Below are positions 55,793-64,000 of a stretch of 64,000 nucleotides of DNA, piece after piece; the first letter of the stretch is position 1; every line of letters starts with the position of its first letter. The notes under the pieces are model-generated. The model saw nothing but the letters and a program-made list of their open reading frames with translations, ran no database searches and was not told the DNA's origin. The position numbers were made by a program, and so were the translations under genes. The DNA comes from Gilvimarinus chinensis DSM 19667 (GTDB taxonomy: Bacteria; Pseudomonadota; Gammaproteobacteria; Pseudomonadales; Cellvibrionaceae). The stretch spans positions 310,001 through 374,000 of the forward strand of contig NZ_KB898706.1 in NCBI RefSeq assembly GCF_000377745.1, written 5' to 3'.

Positions 55793-56806
55793 TTAAATGG
55801 GTAAGCAAAGGGCGCTGGGCAGTACTCCCGTCCAGCGCTTGAAGGCTCGGCGTAAGTTGCGGCTGTCGTGAAAATGCAGCCGTGCCGCAATTTCTTCAAT
55901 ATCCAGCTGTTGTCGTGTCAGCCACTCAATCGCCAGCTCTTTGCGCACCGTGTCATAGCGCTGTTGAAAATGGGTGTGGTGTTTTTGCAGTTTACGTTTA
56001 AAGGTGGCCGTACTCATGTTGAGCGAATCCGCCACCGATTCTAAGCTGATGTGCCCAGGAATGCTGGCACGGATCAAGCCATCGATATGGGCCACAAAGC
56101 CTGTGCTGGGAATGGCCTGGTACTGTGTTTGGCACTGGCGTTTAGCAATAATCGCCGCACTGGCGCTGTTGCTGATACTGGGGGCGGTAGCGATGTCTCG
56201 AGGAAGGCGCATAGCGCTAATGTGCTGCTGAGGGCGCACTCGGCTACCCCAGTTCACGCTGTACTGCTCGTGGTTGCGAATGTCGCCGTGTAAAAAATAG
56301 TCCCACGGCAGGGGGCGCTGATGCAGCAGCCGGCCCACGGAAGTGACCGCGGTCATCATCATATCGGTTAGAAAGCTATTGCCATCACTGACATCGCAGC
56401 AGTCGTGCCAGTATAGGTAGACAAATTCGCTGTCCACCGAGAGGCGGGGGTGCAGCAAGGGGCTCAAGCACCTGTGGTAGGTCTCAAGAGTTTGTAGGGC
56501 TTCAAGTAAGTTAGGGGCAAGAGTCAGCGCGGTACTGGCCGGGCCAAAGTTGCCCGGGTAGAGTCTGTGGCCCGCAAGAAAAGGGGTGTCGGCCCCCGGC
56601 AACTGCTGGCGCAGGTTGCGTATCAGTGCGTAGCATTGACTGGGCTTGATGTTCAGGCAGCCGGAGAGAAAGTCTTCCATAAAGATTCCCGTGCCGCGCA
56701 ACAGTTTGTCTGGTTCCAAACCACGGCTGCAGCCTAAATCAATTAAAGCGGCAGGAAATTCATGAGCGGCAATGATCGGGCTGTCATTTTCATACCAAAG
56801 TGTCAT
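55793..56806 (-). CDS. AraC-family transcriptional regulator
   Basis: A 337-residue regulator. The N-terminal about 220 residues form a ligand/dimerisation-like domain (the arabinose-binding-like group of OruR/ArgR-type regulators); the C-terminal AraC HTH pair is at about 240-330 (HISLESVADSLNMSTATFKR; LDIEEIAARLHFHDSRNLRRAFKRWTGVLP). The ATG directly follows the TAA of the upstream GGDEF gene (TAAATG), so translation is coupled and the two are likely one functional unit. The effector is unknown. Confidence 0.9.
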   Translation of the reverse strand: MTLWYENDSPIIAAHEFPAALIDLGCSRGLEPDKLLRGTGIFMEDFLSGCLNIKPSQCYALIRNLRQQLPGADTPFLAGHRLYPGNFGPASTALTLAPNLLEALQTLETYHRCLSPLLHPRLSVDSEFVYLYWHDCCDVSDGNSFLTDMMMTAVTSVGRLLHQRPLPWDYFLHGDIRNHEQYSVNWGSRVRPQQHISAMRLPRDIATAPSISNSASAAIIAKRQCQTQYQAIPSTGFVAHIDGLIRASIPGHISLESVADSLNMSTATFKRKLQKHHTHFQQRYDTVRKELAIEWLTRQQLDIEEIAARLHFHDSRNLRRAFKRWTGVLPSALCLPI

Positions 56807-57712
56807 TTATGCCGCCCTCGGTGCGCGGCTGTCTTTGGCCGTTAACAGTCTTTGCGTTGCCAGGTCAATCAATGACTCGGGGGTGTGGCCTGTATCGGTG
56901 GCAACCCCTACGCTGGCGCTGTGGTACACGCTTTCACCCTGAGTGGTTTTGTAAGCGAAGTGGCTTACGGCATCTTGCAATTGCGAAGATAGCTGAGTGG
57001 CCAGTTGTTCACCGGCCCCCGGTAGCAGCACCGCAAAGCGATCACCGGCATAGCGGCATAACAGGTCGCAGCGGCGCAGGTTCAGCAGTAAAAGCTCCGT
57101 CAGCTCTTTCAGCAAACGGTCGCCTTCGGCGTGGCCGAAGCGACGGTTGATGGTGTCAAACTGATCCAAGTCCAGCAGTACTAATGTCAAAGGTTGTTGC
57201 TGTTGGCGGCAGTGCTCCAGTTGTTGCTCCAGCTGCTGCTGTAAAAAGCGTGCATCGCCAAGCCCGGTTAATTGATCCTGCAGGCGGTACTCGCGCAGGT
57301 TTTGTTCTTTGCGACGGCGTTCCTGACTGAATAGCAATTGCTCTTTATGCCAGTGGTACAGTGCCAGGGTGAGCACAATCAGGCCCACGGGCATAAGGGT
57401 AGACTCGATGCTGCCGCGCCAAATGGAGGTTTCAGGAATGGCGATAACCTCGTCCATCAAGTCTTGAAAGGAGCCGATAAAAATCAAACCCAGGCCGAGG
57501 GCTAATAGTGTGGTAACCGAGCCTTTGGGGCGGCTGTTCAGGGTAAAGGCCAGCCACAGAATTGTAAGAAGGCACACACCGGACTCCCCGACAATATCCA
57601 GCCAATCAATCTCTTGCCAGAGTTTTATATCACCTACAGCAAGGCTGAGCAGGATAGTGAGGTTGGTGGCCAGCGCTATGGCTAATAGCTTCCATTTGTG
57701 CAGAAAAATCAT
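56807..57712 (-). CDS. Membrane GGDEF protein with degenerate active site
   Basis: A 301-residue protein with four or five N-terminal membrane spans (about residues 8-120), then a coiled linker and a GGDEF domain (about 140-295). The substrate region DLDQFDTINRRFGHAEGD is intact, but the signature reads AGDRF in place of GGDEF, which changes the catalytic Glu to Arg. The inhibitory I-site RRCD (RxxD) is preserved five residues before. It may bind c-di-GMP without making it. The start at 57712 is chosen because upstream residues add no membrane segment; there is no clear ribosome-binding site. It is coupled to the AraC gene. Confidence 0.8.
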   Translation of the reverse strand: MIFLHKWKLLAIALATNLTILLSLAVGDIKLWQEIDWLDIVGESGVCLLTILWLAFTLNSRPKGSVTTLLALGLGLIFIGSFQDLMDEVIAIPETSIWRGSIESTLMPVGLIVLTLALYHWHKEQLLFSQERRRKEQNLREYRLQDQLTGLGDARFLQQQLEQQLEHCRQQQQPLTLVLLDLDQFDTINRRFGHAEGDRLLKELTELLLLNLRRCDLLCRYAGDRFAVLLPGAGEQLATQLSSQLQDAVSHFAYKTTQGESVYHSASVGVATDTGHTPESLIDLATQRLLTAKDSRAPRAA

Positions 57713-57759: not shown

Positions 57760-57777
57760 GTAACAGTTGTATGACAA
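57760..57777 (-). promoter_or_regulatory. Possible second Pho box facing the GGDEF/AraC unit
   Basis: On the minus strand TTGTCAT-ACAA-CTGTTAC matches the two 7-mers of a Pho box (CTGTCAT-N4-CTGTCAT) at 11 of 14 positions. A TACAAT-like hexamer lies 14 bp further, wider than the usual 10 bp, so support is moderate to weak. Confidence 0.4.
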
Positions 57778-57928
57778 AGGTCGGGGGCAAATTGGCTCAG
57801 GGAGTTTTTGGCGAGCCGGTGTTTTTACCGCAATTATGCGCTGCAATGCCGGTCGCCCGTTATTTTGCGGGGGCTGATTAGCTCAATTCTCTGGCTGACG
57901 CACCTCAAATGGTATGACGGGGCAATCG

Positions 57929-57962
57929 CTGTCACAGAACTGTCACGCAGGCTTTTTATTGT
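57929..57962 (+). promoter_or_regulatory. Pho box and -10 element upstream of the phytate-locus receptor
   Basis: CTGTCAC (57929-57935), AGAA, CTGTCAC (57940-57946) match the PhoB box consensus CTGTCAT-N4-CTGTCAT at 12 of 14 positions. A TATTGT hexamer follows at 57957-57962, exactly 10 bp after the box, as in E. coli Pho promoters where the box replaces the -35 element. This predicts PhoB-activated transcription under phosphate starvation. Confidence 0.85.
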
Positions 57963-58026
57963 CTGCCCCACTTTTACTGACCAGCAAGCCGCTGGTATCG
58001 ATGTAGGACTCTTTGGGGGAGATACC

Positions 58027-60801
58027 GTGAAAAAAATTGCCAATCGCCGTGCACCGCAAGTGCGCCGTCAAATGCTCGCCGCCACTATCGCCATGCTGGG
58101 TGCTGCTAGCGCTATTGCTGATGGTCAAATCAGCGGCCAACTGACTACCGAAGTTAGTGGCCTGCCGTTGCAGGGTAGCCGGGTTAAGCTCGAAGAGTTA
58201 AACGTGAGCACCGTCACCGGTCGTGATGGTCGCTACAACTTAAGCGGTATCGAGCCGGGCACTTACACGCTGAGCGTGAGCTACCTGGGTGTGCAAACCA
58301 TGCAGCGCACCATTGAGGTGGTTGATAACGAAACCTTAGTCAGTAACTTCCAAATTCAACCTAATAACACGCGCGAAGAATTCGTGATTGTTATGGGCCA
58401 GGCGGGTAGCTTGAACAAAGCGTTAAACGTTCAACGCTCATCTGACAATTTGGTGAGCGCCGTGGCCGCCGATGCCATCGGCCAGTTTCCCGATACCAAC
58501 GTTTCCGAAGCGTTGCAGCGCTTGCCCGGTTTGTCCATTGAGCGTGACCAAGGTGAAGGCCGTTACGTTCGTATTCGCGGGTTGGGCCCAGACTATAACT
58601 CGGTAACCGTTAACGGCGTGAACTTACCGTCTCCTGACTCTGGCCGTCGCGCCGTGGCTTTGGATGTTATCCCTTCCGATTTACTTGAAGGACTGGTTGT
58701 CAGCAAAACGTTAACGGCTGATATGGATGCGAACTCGCTCGGTGGTAGCATTGATATTCAAAGTTTGTCAGCGTTTGACCGTGACGATATGTTCTACTCG
58801 TTTACCGCCGAGGGAAGTTATAACGAGTTAACCGACAGCACCAGCCCCAAGCTGGCTTTGACCGCATCGGATCAGTTCAGCATTGGCAGCGGTACGAATA
58901 ACCTTGGCATCGCGGGTGGTATCAGCTGGTACGACCGCGACTTTGGCTCCGATAACGTAGAGACCGGCGGCGCTTGGGATTTTGACGATGACGGCACCCT
59001 GCTCGAAGAAGTAGAACAACGCGATTATTTAATCTCTCGTGAGCGCTCTGGTGCAACGCTAAACTTTGATTACAAGCTCAGTGAAAACACCGAGCTTTAC
59101 TGGCGTAACCTGTACAGTGAATACACCGATTCAGAGATTCGTCTGGCTAACATATTTGAATTTGAAGACGGTGTTCTTCCAGGTGCTTCTGGTGTTGCTG
59201 AGGTTGCACGCGAATTAAAAGACCGCGAAGAAACCCAAGAGATTCTGTCGACTGCGTTAGGTGGTACCACGCGAGTTAACAGTTGGACCATTGACTACCG
59301 TGCCGCCGTTTCTGAGTCCAGTGAAGACGAGCCACAGCATGTGAGCGGTGCAGTGTTTGCCGCTAGCGATGCGTTTGAAAATGTATCCTTTACCGATACC
59401 CGTGAACCTTACCTAATGGTACCCGATGCTTTCTTTGCCGCCGACAGCTATGAAATGGACGAAGTGGAAAAAGCTTCATCGGGCACTAACGATACCCAGC
59501 AGTCTTTCCAGCTGGATTTTACCCGCGACTTCTTTGTTGCGAATCACTCAGCACAATTAAAATTTGGTGGTAAGTACCGCAACCGTGAGAAAGACAACGA
59601 CGTTGAAATCTGGGTGTTTGAAGACCTGGATGAACACGGCTTCAGCGATGAGCAACTGCTGATGAGCGGGTATGCCGCTGGCGCACCTGATTTCACCCTA
59701 GGTGATTTTGGTCCGGGTATTAACAGCGATGCGGTTGCCGCGTCGCTCACGGGGCTGGACGAAAGTGAGTTTTACTCGGAGGAAGACTCAACCATCGAAG
59801 ACTTTGATGTCGAAGAAACCGTATCGGCAGCATACGTCATGGGCCGTATTGATTTGCACGATCTGCGGTTGATTGCCGGTGTACGTTACGAAGATACCGA
59901 GTTTGCCTCCCAAGGCACACTGTTTGATGGTGATGAGTTCTCACCTTTAGAGGTTGATAATCAGTACGATAACTTTTTCCCATCCGTGCTCGCCCGTTAC
60001 ACCATTGGCGAAAACTCGCAAATTCGCGGCTCCTGGACTAACTCGCTGGTGCGCCCTAACTTTGAGCAACTGGCACCAAACTTTGTTATTGACGATGGCG
60101 AGGCAGAGTTTGGTAACCCGCTGCTTAAGCCTATGGAGTCGGAAAACTTTGACTTCGGCTTTGAGCACTACATGGGGCTGGCCGGTGTAGTCTCTGCGTA
60201 CGTGTACTACAAGGATATTGAAAACTTTATCTACCAGACAGATTTGGCCGCTACCGATCAGTACGGTGACTATGACGAAGCGATAACCTTCGCCAATGGC
60301 GATTCGGCCGAAGTGTCTGGTATTGAACTGGCATTCTCTAAGCAAATGGACTTTTTGCCCGGTGCCTTGAGCGGGTTGTTGCTGTCGGCTAACGCTACGT
60401 TCTCGGATTCTGAAGCGAGCCTGAGCTACTACGATGAAGACGAAGGTGGTTGGTTAAGCCGTGATAGCAAGCTGCCAAGTCAGTCTGACACGACCGGTAA
60501 CGTAAGCATTGGTTACGAAGCCGCCAGCTTTAATGTTCGCTTAGCGGCCAACTATAAGTCTGAGTACCTGCTTGAAGTTCAAGATGTGACCGATGCGTCT
60601 GAAGACGTCTATGTGGATGAACAAACTCAACTGGACTTTTCGGCTCGCTATTACTTGAGTGAAGGTGTGCAGCTGTATTTCGAAGCGCTGAACCTAACCG
60701 ATGAGCCTTATTACGCCTACGTAAATGATTCATCCTACAATGCGCAGTTTGAAACCTACGGCTTGACTTTCAAGCTGGGGCTCACGGTTACCAACTTCTA
60801 A
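58027..60801 (+). CDS. TonB-dependent outer-membrane receptor (phytate locus)
   Basis: A 924-residue outer-membrane receptor. The GTG start at 58027 follows GGGGGAG and gives a signal peptide (ATIAMLGAASAIADG); the longer frame upstream is discarded because it would run through the Pho promoter. An N-terminal carboxypeptidase-like regulatory domain (about residues 35-110) precedes the plug (NVSEALQRLPGLSIERDQGE, VNGVNLPSPD) and the barrel, ending FKLGLTVTNF. The architecture is that of the TonB-Xanth-Caul group used for complex organic substrates. With downstream phytase and PhoX it probably imports phosphorylated compounds or degradation products. Confidence 0.92.
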   Translation: MKKIANRRAPQVRRQMLAATIAMLGAASAIADGQISGQLTTEVSGLPLQGSRVKLEELNVSTVTGRDGRYNLSGIEPGTYTLSVSYLGVQTMQRTIEVVDNETLVSNFQIQPNNTREEFVIVMGQAGSLNKALNVQRSSDNLVSAVAADAIGQFPDTNVSEALQRLPGLSIERDQGEGRYVRIRGLGPDYNSVTVNGVNLPSPDSGRRAVALDVIPSDLLEGLVVSKTLTADMDANSLGGSIDIQSLSAFDRDDMFYSFTAEGSYNELTDSTSPKLALTASDQFSIGSGTNNLGIAGGISWYDRDFGSDNVETGGAWDFDDDGTLLEEVEQRDYLISRERSGATLNFDYKLSENTELYWRNLYSEYTDSEIRLANIFEFEDGVLPGASGVAEVARELKDREETQEILSTALGGTTRVNSWTIDYRAAVSESSEDEPQHVSGAVFAASDAFENVSFTDTREPYLMVPDAFFAADSYEMDEVEKASSGTNDTQQSFQLDFTRDFFVANHSAQLKFGGKYRNREKDNDVEIWVFEDLDEHGFSDEQLLMSGYAAGAPDFTLGDFGPGINSDAVAASLTGLDESEFYSEEDSTIEDFDVEETVSAAYVMGRIDLHDLRLIAGVRYEDTEFASQGTLFDGDEFSPLEVDNQYDNFFPSVLARYTIGENSQIRGSWTNSLVRPNFEQLAPNFVIDDGEAEFGNPLLKPMESENFDFGFEHYMGLAGVVSAYVYYKDIENFIYQTDLAATDQYGDYDEAITFANGDSAEVSGIELAFSKQMDFLPGALSGLLLSANATFSDSEASLSYYDEDEGGWLSRDSKLPSQSDTTGNVSIGYEAASFNVRLAANYKSEYLLEVQDVTDASEDVYVDEQTQLDFSARYYLSEGVQLYFEALNLTDEPYYAYVNDSSYNAQFETYGLTFKLGLTVTNF

Positions 60802-60823
60802 GCATTGAATAACAAGAACTCAC

Positions 60824-60846
60824 AGCGGCGCCCGTCGCCGCTTTTT
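60824..60846 (+). terminator. Intra-operon rho-independent terminator/attenuator
   Basis: Stem AGCGGCG (60824-60830) / CGCCGCT (60836-60842), loop CCCGT, then T5. It begins 22 bases after the receptor stop and ends 13 bases before the phytase ATG, so only part of the transcript would read through. Confidence 0.85.
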
Positions 60847-60859
60847 GGGATTACGTAAT

Positions 60860-62746
60860 ATGACTTTAAAGCATTTATCCGCGTCTATTGCCTTATGTTT
60901 AAGTTTGGGTGCCTGTGCTGCGCCGGTAGATAAACCTACGGACGCCTCCGTGGACTATATTCCCGCCTTACAGCAAGGCGAAGCGGTTTTTTGGTTGGCA
61001 CTTGATGACAGTGGTCAGTTGCGCGTTGAGAATGGCAAAGCCATTGCCCGTGACGTAAGCGCTGTGAATATCGTGCAAGTAAGCGATGGCTATTTGGTCG
61101 CCACCATTGCCGGAGTAGAGGCGACGCCGACATTGTACTTGCTTCGCGATAATGCAAAACGTGTTGAGCGTTTAGCGACGTTGGCATCGCCCAACTTTTT
61201 AGTGGAAGGTTTGTGCCTGGCCCCCGAAGCCGATGGCAGTGTGTCCTTGTTTATGCTGGACGAGCGCGGCAGTGCCGAGCAATGGGTTGTGTACAGCGAT
61301 AAGCAGTCGTTAACACCGGCGCAACTGCGCACCTTACCCATTGCCCCCAACGCCACAGCGTGCGCAGCGGATGGCAACGGAGGGTTGTTTATTGCCGAAG
61401 AGGAAATGGGCGTGTGGCGCTACTCTTCCAACGCTGAAAAGCCGGTAAGCCGGGAAGTGGTCGGTTTGGCAAGCCCTTACGGTGAACTGGGCGAGGGTAC
61501 AGAAGCCATTGCTTATCTGGGTAATAATTTGGTCACCGTAACCGTAGATACTGCCGAGGTACATGTGCATCAACCCAGTGATAACGGCTGGAGTTCGACG
61601 ACCTTGGGGCAGTGGCAGGGCATTGAAGAGCCAGAGCAATTGCGCGCCTGGTATAACGCCAAAGACGGTCAGCTGCACTTGCAAGCTCGTGACGATGCCA
61701 GCGGCGAATTTGCGCGTAAAAGTTTTGCGGTTGCTGGCGGTCAGCTGGATTTTTCCGCCCCAGCGGCTAGCGAACAAAGCGTTAAACTGGTACAGCCCAG
61801 TGTACAAACCGACCCGGTAGCGCGTTTTGGCGATGCGGCCGACGACCCGGCTATCTGGGTACACCCGCAAACCCCTGAAAAAAGTTTGATTCTCGGTACC
61901 GATAAAAAGCACGGTTTACTGGTGTACACCTTAGATGGCAAACAAAAGCAGCTGTTGCCAACCGGTCGTTTAAACAACGTGGATTTGCGCTACGGTTTTG
62001 ATTTTGGCAATGGTATCGATGATATCGCCGTCGCAACCCAGCGCGATGACAATTCATTGTCGATTTATCGCGTTGACGCTGAAAATGGTCACATTCAGCA
62101 TGTAGCGGAACTGCCCACCGGGCTCGAAGAAATTTACGGCTTCTGCATGTACCAAAACGGTGGCAACACCTACGCGATTGCCAATGGTAAAAGCGGTACC
62201 TTTGAGCAGTATTTGCTGCAGGCAGACAATGGCAAGATCAGCGCATCTTTAGCGCGTACCTTCGCGGTTGAAACCCAGCCCGAAGGTTGCGTAGCCGACG
62301 ACGCTACCGGCCAGTTATTTGTGGGTGAAGAGGGGGTTGGCGTTTACACCTTGTCAGCAAACCCCGAAGCTGGTGATGCACCTGTGCTGATCAGAGGCGT
62401 CGACGAGATAATGGTGGCCGATGTGGAAGGTATGGCTTTGTACCCGGCCGAAAACAGCCGCTACCTGATCGTCTCCAGCCAGGGTGATGACAGTTACGTA
62501 GTGCTGCAGTCCAGCGCGCCTTACAAGGTGCTGGGTAAGTTTCGTGTCGGGGCAAACTACGGCGCGGGCATCGATGCGATTTCTGAAACCGATGGTTTAG
62601 AGGTCACACACCGCTCGCTGGGTAAAGGCTACGAGCAAGGGGCCTTTATCGCACAGGATGGGCATAATGTTATGCCCGAACGTCCGCAAAACTTTAAACT
62701 GGTGCCTTGGTCAGATATCGCCCAGGAGTTGAATTTGAATGACTGA
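60860..62746 (+). CDS. Beta-propeller phytase (3-phytase-like), predicted lipoprotein
   Basis: A 628-residue extracytoplasmic enzyme that releases phosphate from phytate. A lipobox-like signal (LCLSLGAC) suggests a lipid-anchored protein. The C-terminal half (about residues 315-628) is a canonical propeller with GDAADDPAIWVHPQ, ILGTDKKHGLLVYTLDGK and NNVDLRYGF; the N-terminal half is a less conserved, partial propeller, giving a two-domain layout known for some marine phytases. The ATG at 60860 is preferred over an upstream TTG. Its TGA overlaps the start of phoX by 8 bases, indicating coupled translation. Confidence 0.9.
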   Translation: MTLKHLSASIALCLSLGACAAPVDKPTDASVDYIPALQQGEAVFWLALDDSGQLRVENGKAIARDVSAVNIVQVSDGYLVATIAGVEATPTLYLLRDNAKRVERLATLASPNFLVEGLCLAPEADGSVSLFMLDERGSAEQWVVYSDKQSLTPAQLRTLPIAPNATACAADGNGGLFIAEEEMGVWRYSSNAEKPVSREVVGLASPYGELGEGTEAIAYLGNNLVTVTVDTAEVHVHQPSDNGWSSTTLGQWQGIEEPEQLRAWYNAKDGQLHLQARDDASGEFARKSFAVAGGQLDFSAPAASEQSVKLVQPSVQTDPVARFGDAADDPAIWVHPQTPEKSLILGTDKKHGLLVYTLDGKQKQLLPTGRLNNVDLRYGFDFGNGIDDIAVATQRDDNSLSIYRVDAENGHIQHVAELPTGLEEIYGFCMYQNGGNTYAIANGKSGTFEQYLLQADNGKISASLARTFAVETQPEGCVADDATGQLFVGEEGVGVYTLSANPEAGDAPVLIRGVDEIMVADVEGMALYPAENSRYLIVSSQGDDSYVVLQSSAPYKVLGKFRVGANYGAGIDAISETDGLEVTHRSLGKGYEQGAFIAQDGHNVMPERPQNFKLVPWSDIAQELNLND

Positions 62747-64000
62747 GAAAAAAATACAGGGGCGCGATTTCGATATTGACGATATCGCGGTTAACCCCAC
62801 CCAAAGAACTTCCCTCGGGGAGCTCGCCTGTTCACGACGTCGTTTCGTGACAGGTTCCATGGCTGCTTGCCTGGCGCCCGGCGCCGGGCCTTTTTTATTA
62901 TTGGCCTGCAGCTCACAGCCCGCAGGCATGTTTACCGATGCGCTGCGCCCGGAGATAGGCTTTGCGCCCGTGCCGGTGGCTCTGGGCGACAAAGTCGATG
63001 AGGTAACCGTGCCCCAGGGCTACACCGCTCGGCCTTTTTTCTCCTGGGGCGATAAGGTGGTTAACGGGGCGGTCGACTGGCGTAGTGATGCCAGTAACTC
63101 CGCCGCCGAGCAGGAGCTGCAAGCCGGGCAGAATAACGACGGCATGCACTTTTTCCCCTTTCCCGATGCGCCCAACGAGCACGGCTTGTTGGTGGTAAAT
63201 CACGAATACATCAACGACACTTTGCACACCAACGGCCCCACCATTAGCGAAAATGAGCAAGGGCACAAGCAGCGCCCCATGGAAGAAGTGCTCAAAGAGC
63301 AAGCCGCCCACGGCGTGAGTGTGATTGAAATTAAAAAAGATGACGCCGGGCAGTGGCAAAAGGTTTACCCCTCGCGCTTCAACCGCCGCTTGACGGCCAA
63401 TACGGTAATGGATATCAGCGGCCCGGCAGCGGGCACAACGGCGATGAAAACCCTGCAGGATGATACCGGACGCCGCGTGCTGGGGACGTTAAATAATTGC
63501 GCTATGGGTGTAACCCCGTGGGGTACGTATTTAATTTGCGAAGAAAACTGGAAGAATTATTTCGTTAACCGCGACCAGCAGGATTGGCAAAATCGCCCGG
63601 CTCACAAGCGCTATGGCATAGCGTCAGGTGCCAGCAGCCATTACAACTATTGGGAGTCGGTGGACGAACGTTTTGATGCCACACCCAAAGCGGAGCAAAA
63701 ACACAGCGGTTATGTGAACGAGCCCAATCGTTTCGGTTGGGTGGTGGAGTTTGACCCTTTCGACCCCGAATCTCGCCCCGTTAAGCGCACTGCCCTTGGC
63801 CGATTGGTGCGCGAGGGCTGCACTTGTGTATTGGCCGACGATGGCACCATGGCGTTTTATTCCGGCGACGATACTCGCGGCGAGTACGTGTATAAATTTG
63901 TTCCCGAGGGTAAGTTTCGCGCCGATGCCCCCGCTGCCAATCGAGACTTGCTGGACAAAGGCACCGCCTATGTGGCTGTTTATCACGCCGATGGTACCGG
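62739..64000 (+). CDS. phoX: PhoX-family alkaline phosphatase, Tat-exported (3' partial)
   Basis: The first 420 residues of a PhoX-type phosphatase; the gene runs off the window end and the family is usually longer. The Tat signal has SRRRFV followed by a hydrophobic stretch ending in LLLACSS, a lipobox-like site. The body shows PhoX-type segments: NNDGMHFFPFP, GLLVVNHEYIND, NNCAMGVTPWGTYLICEENW and FGWVVEFDPFDP, regions that build the calcium/iron site of PhoX. It cleaves phosphate from esters outside the cytoplasm. CAGGAG lies upstream of the ATG, which overlaps the phytase stop. Confidence 0.92.
   Translation, partial: MTEKKIQGRDFDIDDIAVNPTQRTSLGELACSRRRFVTGSMAACLAPGAGPFLLLACSSQPAGMFTDALRPEIGFAPVPVALGDKVDEVTVPQGYTARPFFSWGDKVVNGAVDWRSDASNSAAEQELQAGQNNDGMHFFPFPDAPNEHGLLVVNHEYINDTLHTNGPTISENEQGHKQRPMEEVLKEQAAHGVSVIEIKKDDAGQWQKVYPSRFNRRLTANTVMDISGPAAGTTAMKTLQDDTGRRVLGTLNNCAMGVTPWGTYLICEENWKNYFVNRDQQDWQNRPAHKRYGIASGASSHYNYWESVDERFDATPKAEQKHSGYVNEPNRFGWVVEFDPFDPESRPVKRTALGRLVREGCTCVLADDGTMAFYSGDDTRGEYVYKFVPEGKFRADAPAANRDLLDKGTAYVAVYHADGT

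Follow-up and report, generated by a model that had tools for sequence, protein, structure and literature searches.

Introduction

Phytate is the phosphate store of plants and a large store of organic phosphorus. In Flavobacterium johnsoniae, phosphate depletion induces the adjacent pair Fjoh_1367-Fjoh_1368, which encodes a phytase and a TonB-dependent transporter (PMC8115612). The locus of Gilvimarinus chinensis described here is alike in the adjacency of phytase and transporter, whereas F. johnsoniae belongs to the Bacteroidetes, and the parts of that report drawn on here mention neither an AraC/GGDEF pair nor operators (PMC8115612). The PhoB regulon of Caulobacter crescentus contains several TonB-dependent receptors and a phytase, and shares with the present locus the link of PhoB to both, adjacency and a second regulator being unstated in the sections considered (PMC11208175). 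In Citromicrobium bathyomarinum JL354, a TonB-dependent transporter beside a phytase was read as serving phytic acid uptake; the adjacency is again shared, and regulation is not described in the portion of the report used (PMC3400609). The pairing of receptor and phytase, and the control of such genes by low phosphate or PhoB, are already published to this extent (PMC3400609, PMC8115612, PMC11208175).

In pseudomonads the published picture is a puzzle, since they grow on phytate, yet evidence that PhoBR controls their phytase is lacking from the consulted part of the work (PMC5082522). This statement comes from the proteomes of Pseudomonas SBW25 and DSM4166, for which the authors proposed that phytase is expressed only when phytate is present, no regulator being named in that part (PMC5082522). 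Close relatives of these strains, not the strains themselves, have the same locus as Gilvimarinus with a Pho box of 12–13/14 (for instance L099, L101, L104 and L060–L069). A connection between phosphate starvation and c-di-GMP is known from Pseudomonas fluorescens Pf0-1, where a Pho box lies before the c-di-GMP gene of RapA, as set out in the part of that work considered (PMC3032545). RapA degrades c-di-GMP, whereas the Gilvimarinus protein is a motif-degenerate GGDEF protein tied to a phytase (PMC3032545). For an AraC/GGDEF pair beside a phytase, or for the operators described below, no publication was recognised in a partial literature search.

On balance, we favour reading the Gilvimarinus locus as a divergent phytate-scavenging regulon with two inputs, in which PhoB and an AraC-family protein would form an AND gate at the receptor promoter.

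Locus Organization

The window, that is, the whole stretch of 64,000 nucleotides that was analysed, corresponds to positions 310001–374000 of contig 1 in a genome of 4.07 Mb. The features of the locus are the following, in window coordinates.

55793–56806, minus strand: gene for an AraC-family regulator of 337 aa (PF12625, PF12833 and PF00165 above cut-off)
56807–57709, minus strand: gene for a four-helix membrane GGDEF-like protein of 300 aa (PF00990 over residues 144–294; AGDRF motif, I-site RxxD)
57760–57777, minus strand: second Pho-box-like site towards the GGDEF gene, TTGTCATACAACTGTTAC (12/14 with C/T allowed)
57782–57799, plus strand: operator 1, CGGGGGCAAATTGGCTCA, candidate AraC site (direct repeat; matrix and pattern scans)
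57868–57885, plus strand: operator 2, CGGGGGCTGATTAGCTCA, candidate AraC site (direct repeat; matrix and pattern scans)
57929–57946, plus strand: Pho box towards the receptor gene, CTGTCACAGAACTGTCAC (consensus scan and conservation)
57957–57962, plus strand: −10 hexamer TATTGT, exactly 10 bp past the Pho box
58027–60801, plus strand: TonB-dependent receptor gene, 924 aa, GTG start (PF07715, PF00593, PF13715; TIGR01782)
60824–60846, plus strand: hairpin followed by a T run in the gap between receptor and phytase genes (hairpin scan)
60860–62746, plus strand: beta-propeller phytase gene, 628 aa (PF02333; alignment to solved phytases)
62739–64000, plus strand: phoX gene, 658 aa, of which the window holds the 5' part (PF05787; full gene to G000:C1:374715)

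Pho Boxes and Promoter Elements

The sequence-only reading had placed a 12-of-14 Pho box with a −10 hexamer at exactly 10 bp before the receptor gene, and both were found as described: the box at 57929–57946 has 2 mismatches to CTGTCATN4CTGTCAT, and TATTGT follows at this distance. The box consists of a 7-bp direct repeat whose two copies are 11 bp apart and both agree with CTGTCAY. When C or T is accepted at the seventh positions, it scores 14/14 and is the sole exact CTGTCAYNNNNCTGTCAY in the 4.07-Mb genome. With as many as 3 mismatches allowed, the window contains 10 Pho-box sites compared with 3.51 expected, and none of 100 shuffles reached 10. In the whole genome at up to 2 mismatches, 85 sites were obtained versus 62 for the reversed pattern, indicating that the weaker matches are mostly noise and that the case rests on position, spacing and relatives. 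A scan for sigma-70 promoters gave 9 sites versus 8.5 expected, and thus no excess.

Conservation was evaluated in 78 homologous regions, namely the window and 77 of 80 loci; L093 and L110 were omitted for an out-of-range gap, and L100 for a contig with no receptor gene. The best receptor-facing box scored at least 11/14 in 76/78 of these regions, which belong to related loci and are to be counted as non-independent events. This is the preferred count, taken from longer regions, while another anchoring gave 58/78 at the same threshold. The scores were distributed as 9 (one region), 10 (one), 11 (nine), 12 (25), 13 (33) and 14 (nine), and among 2,340 dinucleotide-type shuffles serving as baseline, 5.7% reach 11/14 and 0.5% reach 12/14. 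TANNNT occurs exactly 10 bp past the box in 74 of the 76 regions with at least 11/14, the exceptions being L055 and L090, and no other spacing from 6 to 15 bp was observed.

Other genes of the organism were looked at as a check. The phoB gene is present at C1:85474–86148 (365.8 bits, cut-off 296.2), with a weaker box of 11/14 upstream. A Pho box lies 64 bp upstream of pstS, with TAGAGT at 10 bp, and another (G000:C1:229943–229960, L129) 46 bp upstream of the gene for a PhoD-like phosphatase (PF09423, twin-arginine-like start), with GATACT at 10 bp. Of the 15 genome Pho boxes checked, several fall inside long open frames. Taken together, the box and −10 at fixed spacing in 74/78 regions, the presence of phoB and the boxes before pstS and phoD make PhoB control of the receptor–phytase–PhoX unit, as first proposed from the sequence, well supported by comparison.

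Two further observations were made in the same genome scan. At G000:C2:337943–337971, three TGTCAY repeats 11 bp apart give two overlapping Pho-box matches. A box of 13/14, CTGTCATCTGAATGTCAT, is located at G000:C6:55874–55891 (L139), 65 bp upstream of an EAL-CBS-GGDEF gene and with GATAAT at 10 bp; its product may be a RapA-like c-di-GMP phosphodiesterase under PhoB control.

The second Pho-box-like site, towards the GGDEF gene, scores at least 12/14 in 37 of the 78 regions and at least 10/14 in 71, the latter score being attained by one third of shuffles. It sits steadily at about 45–75 bp from the GGDEF start, and it is credited because of this steady place. No conserved −10 was found behind it, with TANNNT at 10 bp in only 5/71 regions, and the assignment of a promoter on the GGDEF side is the less certain one.

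The Adjacent Regulator Pair

The AraC-family protein combines a C-terminal AraC-type helix-turn-helix (PF12833) with an N-terminal sensor domain (PF12625), both above cut-off. Its predicted structure has a pLDDT of 92.5, and the best fold match is CdpR (5chh, E 1.5e-11). Besides CdpR and VirS, Foldseek returned weak matches of the model, among them an oxygen-binding H-NOX domain (1u4h, E 0.0068).

The AraC and GGDEF genes are divergent from the phytase genes in 71/80 loci, which are all those whose contigs reach that far. In the remaining nine (L048, L064, L065, L072, L077, L082, L093, L099 and L100), the contig stops short, either at most ~1.2 kb upstream of the receptor gene or inside the phytase gene. 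Pair-carrying loci were found in Gilvimarinus, Marinimicrobium, Cellvibrio, Pseudomonas, Stutzerimonas, Azomonas, Alcanivorax, Methylophaga, Herminiimonas, Janthinobacterium, Massilia, Pseudoduganella and one Pantoea sp., among others.

Both proteins were then searched in 244 genomes drawn from the order, 57 with a phytase and 187 with none, scoring per genome the best ≤9 candidates for the GGDEF protein and the best ≤8 for the AraC protein. Within these best ≤9 candidates, the GGDEF protein gave 30 matches of at least 129 bits, and 30/30 span the membrane part and lie on the same contig as the phytase, within 5 kb. The next of the scored candidates, at 98 bits, covers the GGDEF domain only. 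Further matches in G213 (79 bits, residues 3–226) and G233 are also beside a phytase. Altogether, the GGDEF protein is present in at least 32/57 phytase genomes, about 25 having no such match among the best ≤9 candidates, and in the 187 phytase-free genomes no match of at least 100 bits occurred among the best ≤9 candidates of each. The 24 best matches of the AraC protein (at least 103.5 bits, best ≤8 candidates per genome) all adjoin the GGDEF gene, while below 103.5 bits paralogues located elsewhere are mixed in. The idea that the pair is simply a common neighbour was rejected, as the membrane-spanning matches, among those listed, are found only beside a phytase.

Direct-Repeat Operators and Their Spacing

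Two direct-repeat operators lie between the two Pho boxes of the window, 86 bp from one another, and operator 2 is 61 bp from the receptor-side Pho box, start to start. An operator matrix, trained on the homologous regions and then scored on them with the same matrix, gave 139 sites of at least 9 bits in their 43,223 bases, compared with a background of 35 such sites in 3,096,496 bases elsewhere in the loci. On the opposite strand of the homologous regions, 0 sites reached 9 bits. The genome-wide pattern, which was derived from the two window sites, matches nothing in the genome exactly but these two sites; with as many as 2 mismatches allowed, it finds 31 sites versus 19 for the reversed pattern in its own genome, and inexact sites elsewhere are not claimed.

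The distance between operator and Pho box follows discrete values. On the receptor side it is 61 bp in 9 loci, 71 in 12, 72 in 47, 93 in one and 44 in one, and on the GGDEF side 21–23 bp in 43, 29 in one, 33–35 in 20 and 54–55 in three. Steps of about 10–11 and 21 bp correspond to helical turns. All four elements, two boxes and two operators, occur together in 62/78 regions. The operator-to-operator distance ranges from 66 to 920 bp. The spacers themselves have diverged, clustering at 50% identity into 7 groups for the 61-bp spacing, 5 for 71 bp and 15 for 72 bp. Phased distances kept despite diverged spacers are to be expected where one bound protein has to face another. From its co-occurrence with the operators, the AraC protein is the candidate for recognising both.

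These features were examined outside the initial set, in 20 further phytase loci, 5 with the AraC–GGDEF pair and 15 without it. In all 5 pair loci, TANNNT lies 10 bp past a box that faces the receptor or phytase gene and scores 13/14 in L158, L162, L164 and L165 and 11/14 in L163. An operator precedes the box by 71 bp in L158, L162 and L165, 72 bp in L164 and 81 bp in L163, scoring 9.0 (L158), 9.1 (L162), 25.6 (L164), 23.7 (L165) and 3.6 bits (L163). L158 and L162 are near copies, by score a single operator is present in L164 and in L165, and the operators of L163, at 5.6 and 3.6 bits, are on a par with the best control (4.4). In 15/15 loci without the pair, no operator above 4.4 bits was found in the scanned stretch; one of these controls, L152, starts 120 bases before the receptor gene, and the absence of the pair there rests on the search of the 244 genomes for the GGDEF protein. 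In L158, L162 and L163, a receptor gene is lacking at this position: the pair diverges directly from the phytase gene, and box and operators lie upstream of the phytase. In this arrangement the switch region has been kept and the gene behind it has changed. Among the loci without the pair, 6/15 have a box of 10–12/14 with TANNNT at 10 bp, for which reason PhoB can probably do without AraC in some lineages.

This last group bears on one alternative, a plain Pho operon in which PhoB alone would switch the receptor–phytase–PhoX unit, leaving the neighbouring AraC and GGDEF genes with separate duties. The near-ideal Pho box with its −10 agrees with it, as do the phytase loci without an AraC pair and, in the parts of the reports considered, the low-phosphate induction of the Flavobacterium phytase and transporter (PMC8115612) and the place of the Caulobacter phytase in the PhoB regulon (PMC11208175). 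Nevertheless, this reading is rather unlikely: the operators are conserved, phased to the Pho box and restricted to pair-carrying loci, and the pair was not seen away from a phytase among the matches listed. Furthermore, PhoB alone would predict the wrong result in Pseudomonas, since the proteomes, in the part of that work used here, are without evidence of PhoBR control (PMC5082522). PhoB, the one regulator considered in the sequence-only reading, is therefore probably not the sole switch, and the locus is better read as a divergent regulon that encodes an AraC-type regulator and a GGDEF-like protein of its own. The comparisons partly support the earlier interpretation, which is correct as far as it goes but gives half of the picture, the divergent half having been missed. 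The two-input regulon remains the preferred reading in what follows.

The GGDEF-like Protein

The predicted structure of the membrane protein (pLDDT 83.9, pTM 0.51) has four N-terminal helices, the last of them continuing into the GGDEF domain, whose fold is closest to SiaD and PleD. The signature GG[D/E]EF of active diguanylate cyclases is absent, AGDR[F/Y] standing in its place in 72/72 sequences (F in 70, Y in 2). The I-site RxxD is intact, with R212 and D215 invariant in 72/72, so that the protein shows the combination of degenerate motif and intact RxxD that characterises degenerate-GGDEF receptors. D180 and D197 are invariant, N188 is nearly so, and the third motif position keeps D. In the helical part, D38, E42, D83, D86, E87 and E102 are invariant in 39 aligned sequences. 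Simple decay of the GGDEF motif was considered and rejected, as the change is invariant in 72/72 and not scattered.

Most likely, the AGDRF protein is a membrane receptor, for c-di-GMP via the I-site or for another ligand, and not a cyclase. If it were instead an active diguanylate cyclase, it would make c-di-GMP during starvation or phytate use and alter attachment, with the AraC protein as a downstream regulator or an unrelated switch. The invariant D180 and D197, the nearly invariant N188, the D kept at the third motif position and the similarity of the predicted fold to SiaD and PleD are compatible with such an activity, but AGDR[F/Y] replaces GG[D/E]EF throughout, and the charge reversal at the fourth motif position is expected to abolish cyclase activity, which makes a cyclase decidedly unlikely.

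Uptake and Hydrolysis Genes

The three genes placed downstream of the Pho box from the sequence alone, for a TonB-dependent receptor, a beta-propeller phytase and PhoX, were borne out by matches to TIGR01782, PF02333 and PF05787. The receptor scores 602 bits against TIGR01782 (cut-off 310), a broad family, and both the plug (PF07715) and the beta-barrel (PF00593) were found. The phytase scores 305 bits against PF02333 (cut-off 21) over residues 299–625, the catalytic domain, with no Pfam match before residue 299. Residues 311–625 align to solved Bacillus phytases (3amr, E 3.2e-72), the N-terminus reads by eye as a lipobox-like LGAC, and the best named relative in the homology search is that of Gilvimarinus xylanilyticus (73% identity). 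PhoX scores 328 bits against PF05787 for the portion inside the window, and its residues 73–657 align to the solved PhoX 4amf (E 5.3e-153), a full-length match; an RRRF motif and a lipobox-like LLAC were read by eye. Elsewhere in the genome (G000:C1:1133750–1134877, L145), a further PhoX-like protein is encoded, which has collagen-like repeats close to the N-terminus.

The span originally drawn ended at 62746, which is the end of the phytase gene, while phoX runs on to G000:C1:374715, 715 bases beyond the window end. Phytase and phoX overlap by 8 bp, and given this overlap they are likely co-transcribed. A hairpin followed by T's lies between the receptor and phytase genes, however, and the one regulated unit of three genes stays a proposal. 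A stem-loop is also present in this gap in L036, L037, L038, L044 and L060, with diverged sequence and without the T run. Its assignment as a firm terminator was dropped, several of 10 relatives having a stem without a T run in the gap.

In relatives, exbB-, exbD- and tonB-type genes are found downstream of the phytase, as checked by Pfam for ten proteins from six loci. All three are present only in L060, and one or two in L043, L090, L094, L101 and L105. Since these genes follow the phytase, energised uptake is supported. In L060, L090, L094 and L105, phoX comes after them, and in Gilvimarinus it comes directly after the phytase. Import by the receptor of metal–phytate complexes for their metal, or of another phosphate ester, in a locus not mainly concerned with phytate phosphorus, would fit the breadth of TIGR01782 and a receptor substrate that is unreadable from the sequence here, but it is highly improbable in view of the starvation box, phytase and PhoX, whose order is the same across Gilvimarinus, Marinimicrobium and Cellvibrio, and of the dedicated exbB/exbD/tonB genes beside the phytase in relatives.

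Discussion

In the preferred two-input regulon, scarce phosphate would bring PhoB to both back-to-back Pho boxes, as their sequence and conservation suggest. PhoB would prime the receptor–phytase–PhoX promoter and probably raise the regulator pair. The AraC-family protein would bind the two direct-repeat operators and, with its own signal, join PhoB to fire the receptor promoter, giving an AND gate of phosphate hunger and a second signal. Phytate or a breakdown product may be this signal, or it may be relayed by the AGDRF membrane protein. Judging by their families and neighbours, the receptor would take phytate or inositol phosphates across the outer membrane, the phytase would strip phosphates and PhoX would cleave the smaller esters. 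The step proposed with least assurance is that the AGDRF protein may pass its state to the AraC protein.

Tentatively, this scheme could be taken further, and it is possible, if doubtful, that the AGDRF and AraC proteins form a dedicated signalling pair that occurs only with phytase, in which reading of c-di-GMP at the I-site would license AraC, and the promoter would respond to PhoB and a lifestyle or substrate signal. The AGDRF protein would perhaps also read an outside cue via D38, E42, D83, D86, E87 and E102. Since another Pho box of this genome precedes the EAL-CBS-GGDEF gene, c-di-GMP could fall as a result of starvation itself, which would contribute to the second input.

For the biology of the family, these searches describe a degenerate GGDEF family that, among the matches listed, occurs only beside phytase. 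With a gate that needs both PhoB and AraC, the absence of evidence for PhoBR control in SBW25 and DSM4166, in the part of that work considered, would be expected in medium without phytate (PMC5082522). The apparent second switch and the regulator pair may account for the finding that such phytase genes were not observed to respond to starvation alone, and the locus would offer a concrete answer in the form of a Pho box, a phased second operator and a partner regulator encoded next door.
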